This document shows positions 25,074-28,424 of a stretch of 38,058 nucleotides of DNA, one piece after another. Within the stretch, counting starts at the first letter, position 1; every line of letters starts with the position of its first letter. This DNA is from Thermoflexia bacterium (GTDB taxonomy: Bacteria; Chloroflexota; Anaerolineae; B4-G1): contig DUEK01000013.1 in the NCBI GenBank assembly GCA_011192155.1, positions 1 through 38,058 of the forward strand, in the 5' to 3' direction. Below the pieces are notes generated by a model that saw only the letters and a list, made by a program, of their open reading frames with translations, ran no database searches and was not told where the DNA came from. The position numbers and the translations under genes are program-made.

Positions 25074-25535
25074 CTATGCTTCAGCCTCGCCAGAGTCCGT
25101 CTCTGGCTCAACATTCTCCTCGGACGGCTCATCCCAGCACCAGGGCGGCATTGGGCCGTGCATCCAGCGCCGGTGGTCGCGGCGCGCGCCGCGACGCCCG
25201 TAGGTAGGATGCCAGTGCCTGTATCCAGGCCCGCACATCATGGGGCGAAAGGCCCCGCCCCAGATAACAAAGCGGACGAGCCTAAAGATCACGCCAAAGA
25301 ACACCAACCCCAGCACGACCTTGAACAGCAGCCCCGCGCCGAACATAAAGGCCAGCGGTCGCCCGATGCGGCCAGGGCCGGAAGGCGGTACGATCTCTTC
25401 CCCTTCGGCTGCCAGTTGGCTGTCCCCGTATCCTTGCGACCATCCAGCGCGGTAGGTTACTGCACCGCCCGCGATCAACAGGCCGACGAGGATCAGCGTC
25501 GCCAGCACTCGCCACAAAATCCATTTCTCGGTCAT
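25074..25535 (-). CDS. Hypothetical two-helix membrane protein with His/Arg/Trp-rich tail
   Basis: 153 residues. There is an N-terminal helix (LATLILVGLLIAGGAV), a hydrophilic segment, a second Gly/Phe-rich helix (LLFKVVLGLVFFGVIFRLV), then a tail rich in His, Arg, Trp and Pro (GYRHWHPTYGRRGARRDHRRW, MPPWCWDE) ending acidic. GGAGGAGGTG precedes the ATG. No family is recognised. The tail could bind metal or nucleotide, but this is speculation. It may once have been co-transcribed with the 44-residue membrane peptide upstream, from which it is now separated by the 121-bp repeat at 25562-25682. Confidence 0.6.
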   Translation of the reverse strand: MTEKWILWRVLATLILVGLLIAGGAVTYRAGWSQGYGDSQLAAEGEEIVPPSGPGRIGRPLAFMFGAGLLFKVVLGLVFFGVIFRLVRFVIWGGAFRPMMCGPGYRHWHPTYGRRGARRDHRRWMHGPMPPWCWDEPSEENVEPETDSGEAEA

Positions 25536-25552: not shown

Positions 25553-25691
25553 TTTTGTTTTCAGCAATTCCCGTTTTGTAGCCGCGATTTCCAAATCGCG
25601 TCTGTTTTTCCGCGTAAAGCGCCCTGCGCGATTGCGAAATCGCGGCTACGACCTGACTTTTCCCCCATAACGGGAATTGCTGTTTTGTTTT
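25553..25691. mobile_element. 121-bp MITE copy A with 9-bp target duplication
   Basis: The element spans 25562-25682. Its ends are CAGCAATTCCCGTT and the exact reverse complement AACGGGAATTGCTG. Inside them a second pair, GTAGCCGCGATTT / AAATCGCGGCTAC, forms nested inverted repeats. It is flanked on both sides by TTTTGTTTT (25553-25561 and 25683-25691), a perfect 9-bp direct repeat read as a target-site duplication. No coding frame. It is base-for-base the reverse complement of the copy at 28295-28415. The right duplication overlaps the stop codon of the 44-residue gene. Confidence 0.92.
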
Positions 25692-25824
25692 AAAAGGCAG
25701 GCGACGGCGGAACCCAGAGGCAGACCCAGAGTCCGGTCACCAGGATGAACAAGATGATTACCACAATCAGCCGCACGGCCTTGCTCGGTCTTGCTGTTCC
25801 TGACACCCAGTTTGTTCTCTGCAT
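25690..25824 (-). CDS. Small single-pass membrane protein, 44 residues
   Basis: The ATG at 25824 is chosen because GGAGGTGTGATT precedes it; a longer frame from 25875 lacks a ribosome site. It has a basic N-terminus (RTNWVSGTARPSKAVR), one hydrophobic helix (LIVVIILFILVTGLWVCLWV) and ends PPSPAF. No family is recognised. The stop codon (TTA on the + strand, 25690-25692) overlaps the target duplication of the neighbouring MITE, so the original C-terminus may have been altered by the insertion. It is divergent from the cNMP-binding gene. Confidence 0.5.
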   Translation of the reverse strand: MQRTNWVSGTARPSKAVRLIVVIILFILVTGLWVCLWVPPSPAF

Positions 25825-25953
25825 AATCACACCTCCATACGCCGTTCTGCCTGCTTTGATTGTAGTATGCCACAAACCTGTGTAGGAATTATGAAGAGGT
25901 GTGGGAGATGTGGTGAAATTGAGCGAGCGAATGGTTCAGCTAGCTGCTTTTCT

Positions 25954-25990
25954 TCCCTCTCAGAATATGTTACAATTACAGTGAGAGGGA
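25954..25990 (+). promoter_or_regulatory. Inverted repeat spanning -10-like box and ribosome site
   Basis: TCCCTCTCA (25954-25962) and TGAGAGGGA (25982-25990) are perfect inverted repeats. The intervening 19 bases include the -10-like TACAAT (25971-25976), and the right arm overlaps the start of the ribosome site (GAGGGAGGA) of the next gene. It could serve as an operator. Confidence 0.5.
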
Positions 25991-25998
25991 GGAACGAT

Positions 25999-27696
25999 AT
26001 GCCCAACGTGGTAAATCAACTCAAGCAAGTCCCACTGTTTGCCAATCTCAAAAAGGGTGACCTCAAAGCGGTGGCCCAACTGGTCAAGCGCTCGCAGCAC
26101 CCGGCCGGGAGCGAGATTTGTCGTCAGGGGAGGCTCGGCAGCACGGCCTACATCGTCGAAAGCGGCGAGTTGCGTGTCATCCACGTCGACCCGCAGGGGA
26201 GGCGGCAGGAAGTCAAGCGGCTGGCGGCTGGCGCTTTTTTTGGCGAAACCTCGCTCTTGCTAGGCGAACCGCGCGACGCCACCGTCGAGGTCGTTCAAGA
26301 TGCCACCCTGCTATCGCTGGACAAGGACGATCTGGATCAATTGATGCACGAGCGACCCTCTGTGCTCGAAGCGCTGGACATGAGTCCGGCGGTCGAAGGA
26401 AAGCGGCTCGCTCACCACTTTACGTGGCAAGACCCAGACGAGATCATCATCGTCCATCTGCACAAGCACAAGTGGGTATTGGCCCGCCACATCATCTTTC
26501 CCATCTTTGTGCTTTTGGTAGACCTGGTCGGGTGTGGCTATTATTGGGCGCATAATTTTGACCAGTTCTGGGTCTTGATCGCCGGAGCGCTCCTGGCTCT
26601 GGTTCCCATCGCCTTTATCACATACCTATACCTGGATCACGAGAACGATCACTACGTCGTGACGAACAAGCGGGTTGTACACGAAGAGCACGTTCTCATT
26701 TTCAGAGAGGCCCGCACCGAGGCACCCTTACGCGCCGTGCAAGATATCCAGGAATCACAAGTGGGCTTGCTGGCTCAGATCTGGGACTTTGGCGACCTGA
26801 TCATTGAGACGGCCGGAGAACACGGGCACGTGGTCTTTCGCGAGATTCCCGACCCAGAAGGGACGCGAGAGGCGATCCTTGAGCAAATCAACCGCGTGCA
26901 GGCCGGATCCCGCGCCCAGGAAATGTCCGCTCTCCGCGACGTCGTGCGTCGCCACTTTGGCATTTCTGCCGACCAAGAGGAGGCAATGTCGCCAGCAGAG
27001 CCTCCCTCAAAGAAGCATCGCTTCAAGCTAAAGACGCCCGCCTGGCTGCTCGCGTTCCGGCAAGTTTTCACCTACTTTCTTCCCCCGCTACGTCACGAGC
27101 AGGGAGATACGATCACCTGGCGCAAGCACTGGATCGCTTTGCTCAAGCCCATCGCGATTCCCACACTGCTCATCGTCGCAGCTACTGTCGTTGCAATTAT
27201 CACTACCTGGCGCTCCCCCGCTAATTGGATGCCGGCGCTGATCGGTTACAGCACGGCGCTCGTCTTTTTGTTCCCCTGGTGGCTGTGGAAGTTTGATGAT
27301 TGGCAGAACGACATATACCAGGTGACGACCACGCGCATCATTGACGTCGAACGATTGCCCTTTTACCTGCGCGAGGACCGGCGCGAGGCCAGCCTGGGAA
27401 TGATCCAGAACATCAGCCTGGATATCCCAGACTTTGTGGCCAAGTTGCTGAACTATGGCTCGGTGACTATTGAGACCGCTGGCGCCGGGGCCTTTACCTT
27501 TAGCCTAGTCAAGGACCCGCGCAGTGTGCAAGCCGAGATATTTCGTCGGGTGGATGCCTTCCAGAACCGGCAGCGTCAAGCGGAGCTCGAGCGCCGCCAG
27601 GCCGAGATGCTCGACTGGTTCTCAGTCTACGATCAGGTGCGCCACTCGAAACCTCTCACGCCCCGGCTTGCGCCTTCACCGCTACAGGAGTCTTGA
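25999..27696 (+). CDS. Cyclic-nucleotide-binding, double bacterial-PH membrane protein
   Basis: 565 residues. The ATG at 25999 is chosen for its GGGAGGA site; the longer frame from 25867 would cover the promoter region. Residues 1-~125 are a cNMP-binding domain (VPLFANLKKGDLKAVAQL; phosphate cassette FFGETSLLLGEPRDATVEV with the Glu and Arg intact). Then come two copies of [two helices + YdbT-like bPH domain]: helices ~160-215 with YVVTNKRVV, and helices ~430-475 with YQVTTTRIIDVERLPF and SLGMIQNISLDIP. I infer a membrane protein gated by cyclic nucleotide. It is followed 4 bp later by a peptide deformylase, so they form an operon. The role is unknown. Confidence 0.85.
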   Translation: MPNVVNQLKQVPLFANLKKGDLKAVAQLVKRSQHPAGSEICRQGRLGSTAYIVESGELRVIHVDPQGRRQEVKRLAAGAFFGETSLLLGEPRDATVEVVQDATLLSLDKDDLDQLMHERPSVLEALDMSPAVEGKRLAHHFTWQDPDEIIIVHLHKHKWVLARHIIFPIFVLLVDLVGCGYYWAHNFDQFWVLIAGALLALVPIAFITYLYLDHENDHYVVTNKRVVHEEHVLIFREARTEAPLRAVQDIQESQVGLLAQIWDFGDLIIETAGEHGHVVFREIPDPEGTREAILEQINRVQAGSRAQEMSALRDVVRRHFGISADQEEAMSPAEPPSKKHRFKLKTPAWLLAFRQVFTYFLPPLRHEQGDTITWRKHWIALLKPIAIPTLLIVAATVVAIITTWRSPANWMPALIGYSTALVFLFPWWLWKFDDWQNDIYQVTTTRIIDVERLPFYLREDRREASLGMIQNISLDIPDFVAKLLNYGSVTIETAGAGAFTFSLVKDPRSVQAEIFRRVDAFQNRQRQAELERRQAEMLDWFSVYDQVRHSKPLTPRLAPSPLQES

Positions 27697-27700
27697 ACAG

Positions 27701-28267
27701 ATGACAGTGCGCCCAATTGTAGTTTACGATGATCCACTGTTGCGCGAAAAGTCGCGGCGCGTGCAGCGCGTGCGCCCGGCAGTGCGGCGACTCATTGACG
27801 ATATGGTCGAGACGATGCGGGCAGGCAACGGCATTGGCCTGACCGCCATCCAAGTGGGCGTGCCGGAGCGTGTCATCGTCGTCGAGGCGCCCGAGGAGAA
27901 CGAGAAAGACGCAGAAGAAAGCGAGGGACGCGAGTCCTGGCAACTTTACGCGGTCATCAATCCCAAACTGGCGCGCAAGTCCCGAGAGATGGAAGACGGG
28001 ATTGAGGGCTGCCTCTCCGTCCCCGGCCTGGTGGGGGAGGTTACGCGCCACTATGCCATCACTGTCGAGGGGCTGAATGGTCAGGGGCAGGATGTGCGGA
28101 TCAGGGCAAAAGGGCTCCTGGCTCGTGTCTTTCAGCACGAGATTGACCATTGTGACGGCGTGCTGTTCATAGATCACATTGATGACCCGGAAAAGATTTG
28201 GCCGGTGGCCGAAGGGGAGGAAGAAGCAGCGGAGGCAGCTCAAGAGATACCCAAAAATCCGTCATAG
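27701..28267 (+). CDS. def: Peptide deformylase
   Basis: It removes the formyl group from the N-terminal Met of new proteins, using a metal ion. 188 residues with all three motifs: GIGLTAIQ (44-51, canonical GxGxAAxQ with Ala replaced by Thr), EGCLS (102-106, Cys ligand) and HEIDH (146-150, two His ligands and catalytic Glu). An acidic insertion (APEENEKDAEESEGRE, ~63-78) lies between motifs 1 and 2, and an acidic Ala-rich tail (GEEEAAEAAQE) extends the C-terminus. AGGAG lies 11 bases before the ATG. It is co-transcribed with the cNMP-binding gene. It may be a second deformylase besides a housekeeping copy elsewhere; this cannot be told from the window. Confidence 0.95.
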   Translation: MTVRPIVVYDDPLLREKSRRVQRVRPAVRRLIDDMVETMRAGNGIGLTAIQVGVPERVIVVEAPEENEKDAEESEGRESWQLYAVINPKLARKSREMEDGIEGCLSVPGLVGEVTRHYAITVEGLNGQGQDVRIRAKGLLARVFQHEIDHCDGVLFIDHIDDPEKIWPVAEGEEEAAEAAQEIPKNPS

Positions 28268-28285
28268 CACAAGTGTATCATCTCA

Positions 28286-28424
28286 ATACTCGAACAGCAA
28301 TTCCCGTTATGGGGGAAAAGTCAGGTCGTAGCCGCGATTTCGCAATCGCGCAGGGCGCTTTACGCGGAAAAACAGACGCGATTTGGAAATCGCGGCTACA
28401 AAACGGGAATTGCTGATACTCGAA
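28286..28424. mobile_element. 121-bp MITE copy B with 9-bp target duplication
   Basis: The element spans 28295-28415 and is identical to copy A (25562-25682) in reverse orientation, 121 of 121 bases by eye. It is flanked by its own, different 9-bp direct repeat ATACTCGAA (28286-28294 and 28416-28424). The independent duplications prove two separate insertions rather than one copied block. It lies 27 bp after the deformylase stop. No coding frame. Confidence 0.92.

Follow-up and report, generated by a model that had tools for sequence, protein, structure and literature searches.

The two 121-bp inverted repeats studied here, which lie in a 38,058-nt stretch of Thermoflexia DNA (the window, contig C35), are probably composite elements: non-autonomous MITEs in which a DDE-transposon shell with ISNCY-like IS ends carries a REPIN-like doublet of REP palindromes and is moved in trans. 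What this adds to the known MITE reading is a REPIN-like cargo within a DDE shell, which is our best reading of the elements. RAYTs are the favoured movers of REPs, yet many REP-rich genomes have no fitting RAYT. The REP doublet described here has demonstrably moved inside DDE-type ends with 9-bp duplications, which provides a second route for REP spread. The genome from which the window comes is a 3.41-Mb draft of 178 contigs and is 83% complete.

The first copy lies at 25562-25682 on the forward strand with its TTTTG end first, and is identical to 12 others in the genome. The second, at 28295-28415 on the reverse strand, is its exact reverse complement, with 100% agreement over 121 bp; the inverted-repeat arms were computed as 124 bp, a length that includes chance matches at three flanking bases. 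The terminal inverted repeats, CAGCAATTCCCGTT, are perfect over 14 bp and reach 17 bp if one mismatch is allowed. In copy 1 they occupy 25562-25575 (+, end type ...TTTTG) and 25669-25682 (-, end type ...TTATGGGG). Each copy is flanked by a perfect 9-bp target duplication of its own, TTTTGTTTT at 25553-25561 and 25683-25691 for copy 1 and ATACTCGAA at 28286-28294 and 28416-28424 for copy 2, and the chance probability of one such duplication is about 4e-6 per copy. A sequence-only reading of this DNA had reported the inverted pair, its 14-bp termini and the two different duplications, all of which were reproduced; its view that the insertions were independent and recent is upheld by the different perfect duplications and by the 13 identical copies of the family. 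Since the duplications directly abut the CAGCAATTCCCGTT ends, the moving unit runs from end to end and is the whole element. Besides copies 1 and 2, no further CAGCAATTCCCGTT-type ends were found in the window at 0-1 mismatch, and the profile of the parent-type transposase gave no match there, in line with the earlier statement that the window holds no transposase.

The family comprises about 80 copies in this genome. The further copies that the sequence-only reading had anticipated are abundant: ends matching CAGCAATTCCCGTT with at most one mismatch were found 170 times genome-wide, compared to once for a reversed-pattern control, and 78 left ends have the REP attached. Among the 75 distinct complete copies that were read, 52 are exactly 121 bp long (the range over all complete copies is 77-310 bp), and the 9-bp duplication is perfect in 51 and carries 1-2 mismatches in 9 more. 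No strong consensus was seen among the 9-bp duplications. The 13 copies identical to the window copy and the 55 with at least 90% identity to it point to a recent burst of expansion on top of older copies. In a crude ORF model, 7 of the 30 tested insertion sites fell within ORFs, compared to 76.5% of positions drawn at random from these flanks, indicating a strong preference for intergenic DNA. The elements are short and without coding capacity, and they possess terminal inverted repeats, a target-site duplication and ends shared with an autonomous element, which supports their assignment to a MITE family. One strand of the 121-bp element is predicted to fold into a single long hairpin (z -7.5 to -11.3), and such a hairpin or cruciform may play a role in transposition or in RNA. 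No Rfam family was found for the element, and in the literature its end sequence was found only within primers that are unrelated, as judged from the subjects of the papers.

The subterminal inverted repeats, for which 13 bp had been claimed from the letters alone, are present and extend over 23 bp at 91% identity; what had been missed is that they constitute a REP doublet. The interior of the element consists of two GTAGCCGCGATTTC-NN-AATCGCG units in opposite orientation, with GTAG on the outer side. In copy 1, the arms are GTAGCCGCGATTTCCAAATCGCG at 25578-25600 (+), of which stand-alone copies exist elsewhere, and GTAGCCGCGATTTCGCAATCGCG on the - strand at 25627-25649. In copy 2, they are GTAGCCGCGATTTCGCAATCGCG at 28328-28350 (+) and GTAGCCGCGATTTCCAAATCGCG on the - strand at 28377-28399. 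When up to 2 mismatches are allowed, the genome contains 168 matches to the GTAGCCGCGATTTC-NN-AATCGCG unit, mostly as inverted pairs, versus 0 for the control. At seven loci of the same genome the REP unit occurs without CAGCAATTCCCGTT ends, singly or in other pairs, and a genome of the same family (G003) contains a stand-alone REP doublet (L062/L326). REPs without these ends are also present in many genomes of the order. Numerous genomes of f3, a sister family, have the GCGATTTC REP as single units, as tandem arrays or together with other palindromes in pairs, and not one of these REP-bearing f3 genomes has a CAGCAATTCCCGTT end. Therefore, the REP is not simply a part of the MITE.

We found no literature on REPs of Anaerolineae. 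A short tandem REP array with 31-bp spacing and without MITE ends was observed in genome G047 (C439, L064). A truncated RAYT-like ORF (MPDHFHLLI...) lies at C33:49092-49292 (L265) of the window's own genome, with a stand-alone REP about 11 kb away.

GTAG-tagged REP dimers, or REPINs, consist of two opposed units with GTAG on the outside (PMC3116915, PMC3733652). The doublet described here resembles them in its outer GTAG, 7-bp palindromic stem, small loop, opposed units, intergenic position and high copy number. It differs in that it is enclosed by DDE-type ends with 9-bp duplications, while REPINs are attributed to RAYTs and are without such duplications. The closest precedents are the GTAG-15 dimers in long palindromes of Anabaena variabilis and QMITE2 of Coxiella. 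In the accessible part of the Anabaena variabilis report, the REP dimer likewise sits within a longer inverted repeat and is never seen outside it; the outer palindrome, of another sequence, is however read there as an insertion target, and that part mentions neither duplications nor a parent IS. QMITE2 (PMC10969869) is a MITE containing a GTAG REP, but with other ends and in another host, and interchange of REP types is not reported for it. The BrickBuilt MITE of Porphyromonas gingivalis (PMC4596501) also carries another repeat class inside, its cargo being a minisatellite instead.

Complete ISs related to the MITE by their ends were found in the same class. One of them (L148) is 1818 bp long, has the ends CAGCAATTCCCGGTTTG and CAGCAATTCCCGTTTTG, encodes a 433-aa transposase and is flanked by the perfect 9-bp duplication AATGTTACC; its end CAGCAATTCCCGTTTTG agrees with the TTTTG end of the MITE over 17 bp. 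A second intact IS (L147) has the duplication CTCAATGCA. The ends of the intact ISs match those of the MITE by 12-17 bp, and the length of the duplication is 9 bp in both. More distant relatives with CAGCAATTCT... ends have 9-bp duplications at L158 and L164 (with CTATTTGAC and TTTCATTAG) and at L160 (CAGCAATTCCA), and a duplication of 8 bp at L155. In addition, an internally deleted element of 471 bp in G026, which belongs to the same order, has the ends of the MITE and encodes a transposase fragment, the first 111 aa; homologues of this fragment were detected in 20 of the 396 genomes of the class. The transposases of L147 and L148 match PF01609 above the cut-off, though weakly, and no NCBIfam IS family reached the cut-off for them. 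A homologue with 32% identity, from a plasmid of Gloeothece, carries the annotation 'ISNCY family transposase', and its ends are CAGCAATTCTCATTTTG. On account of this annotation, the PF01609 match and these ends, we call the parent an ISNCY-like DDE transposon, a family placement that is provisional in the formal sense. ISNCY-type insertion sequences, to which the annotated homologue of Gloeothece verrucosa (WP_013335080) points, are similar in their CAGCAATTC(C/T)C... ends, their 9-bp duplications and their DDE transposase of about 440-450 aa. The element described here, on the other hand, has no transposase, and the intact parent of its exact family was not found in its genome.

The prediction, made from the window alone, that an autonomous parent with the same ends should exist is thus borne out in part: the same class contains ISs that match the MITE in their ends and in the 9-bp length of their duplications, but no intact one was found in the window's own genome. 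In this 83% complete assembly a PF01609 search gave no match, and the transposase profile A1 returned relics alone. These degenerate relics of a related transposase, on C135, C137 and C113, are without recognisable ends. The parent may have been lost, or it may lie in DNA that the assembly does not cover. Movement of the MITE by a DDE transposase that prefers such ends and cuts with a 9-bp stagger is strongly supported; because the own genome yielded only such relics, we infer cross-mobilisation by the ISNCY-like transposase from the ends and the duplication length. In the mechanism that we propose, the ends of each copy would be the TIRs of an ISNCY-like IS encoding a DDE transposase of about 434-456 aa, and the interior would be a REPIN-like inverted doublet of GTAG-tagged REP palindromes. 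Supplied in trans, at present or until recently, the transposase would recognise the CAGCAATTCCCGTT ends, excise or copy the element and open a target site, as a rule an intergenic one, with a 9-bp stagger for its insertion. The shell may have received a REP doublet on more than one occasion, by capture, or its doublet may have been replaced.

Unpaired ends on C90, C113 and C6 were considered as candidates for the parent and rejected, as they are halves of the MITE joined to a nested second MITE, without a transposase. Matches to the 14-mer end in G019, G020 and G002 (C3) were likewise not accepted as family members, since they are without a partner end and probably represent chance or relics. 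The second MITE, which has the ends TATACTGA(A/G)CGCAA and contains a palindrome pair of its own, AGGCTTTAGCCGG, is nested in the first MITE at C90:3386 (L100 1387-), C113:78271 (L098), C6:126 (L089) and C136:19869 (L276) of the own genome. On C90 and C113, the left half of the first MITE is followed by the second MITE, both flanks differ and there is no duplication; on C6, the left junction is the same as on these two contigs and the contig ends inside the second MITE.

The same ends were also found around other interiors. Another genome of the same family, the Chloroflexi MAG SpSt-1225 (G005, DSDT), has 55 exact ends, and its elements are mostly 119-122 bp long with 9-bp duplications and a different doublet, GTAGTNGCGACTTTAGTCGC. 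The own genome has a few old SpSt-type copies, at C82, C146 and C135. A scan of named genomes, which left out the window's own genome, revealed the same ends around GTAGTNGCGACTTTAGTCGC-type doublets in the Chloroflexota HGW-Chloroflexi-1 and SuakinDeep MAG45, and in Methanosarcinales/ANME archaea (L190, L201, L227, L234) 180-bp elements with CAGCAATTCCCG ends and unrelated interiors; 9-bp duplications occur in both groups and are perfect in the archaeal elements. The family shows a single set of IS ends reused across Chloroflexota and archaea, with differing interiors. One SpSt-type doublet was furthermore found between other ends, CAGTAGTTTTGCA, in an element of 131 bp that may have a 6-bp duplication (L322 242-372, on C73 of SpSt-1225). 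We tentatively suggest, as a serious possibility, that REP doublets of Chloroflexota are interchangeable cargo of DDE shells (CAGCAATTCCCGTT, CAGTAGTTTTGCA and perhaps TATACTGA) and are spread by DDE transposases beside or instead of RAYTs. Earlier accounts of REP dimers that lie within longer palindromes would, if this is true, have an explanation. As a separate observation, contigs C13, C14, C48, C82, C100 and others of SpSt-1225 begin or end exactly within a MITE copy, so this and similar draft genomes break at the MITE repeats.

It could be argued that the element is an ordinary MITE, the hairpins of which evolved in place, with the free REPs as decayed fragments and the other palindromes as a diverged ancestral interior. 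The element types could not be reliably aligned through their REP arms. The spacers between the palindromes are alike among types in the same orientation, above shuffles (own versus HGW-1, p about 0.001-0.003, a modest value), a likeness that is only suggestive. In SpSt-1225, nearly all SpSt-type REPs lie inside MITEs, so the REP there is not clearly an independent family. Copies of the Coxiella QMITE2 from which the ends have been lost have also been described as resembling REPs (review PMC10969869). Nevertheless, an ordinary MITE would leave the many sister-family genomes with the GCGATTTC REP and no CAGCAATTCCCGTT end, as well as the SpSt-type doublet between the different CAGTAGTTTTGCA ends, difficult to account for, and we consider this explanation unlikely. 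A doublet captured by the shell and free REPs released from decayed MITEs are both compatible with the data, the direction being not proven.

We see hardly any chance that the REP doublet is itself the active unit, moved by a RAYT (a tyrosine transposase), and that the CAGCAATTCCCGTT ends merely represent a target palindrome. A target palindrome was suggested earlier for the GTAG-15 dimers of Anabaena variabilis. The doublets with outer GTAG do fit REPINs (PMC3116915, PMC3733652), and the own genome, an 83% complete assembly, contains truncated RAYT-like ORFs, its Y1_Tnp matches being weak or truncated. However, in 51 of the 75 copies the duplication lies directly outside the CAGCAATTCCCGTT ends, so the whole 121 bp moved together. 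RAYT-type (HUH/Y1) transposition, as in the IS200/IS605 family, makes no duplications and would be expected to leave none, while the ISs sharing these ends have the same 9-bp duplications. For the window copies, each with a perfect and different duplication, movement by a RAYT is largely refuted.

The two copies bracket a gene for a cNMP-binding and bPH_2 protein at 25999-27696 (+; PF00027, PF03703) and a peptide deformylase gene at 27701-28267 (+; PF01327), and the Pfam domains bear out what the sequence-only reading had said of both genes. In 11 of 12 relatives from the order the two genes lie next to each other and point the same way, indicating a conserved pair. The identical inverted 121-bp repeats, 2.6 kb apart, could in principle recombine and flip the segment between them (25682-28295), making it an invertible cassette, as had been proposed. 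We regard such a cassette as very improbable. Recombination would swap the flanks and unmatch both duplications, whereas they are paired within each copy; the assembled arrangement is therefore un-inverted or has flipped an even number of times. In the relatives the gene pair is retained, but its flanks are not syntenic, so the orientation cannot be compared with theirs. With respect to the neighbouring genes, copy 1 is upstream of the leftward gene 25074-25535, at a distance of 26 nt from its start codon, and leaves the ribosome-binding site of this gene intact, and copy 2 starts 28 nt past the stop codon of the deformylase gene. In this downstream copy a REP arm is followed by T-rich sequence, which on one strand looks like a terminator.
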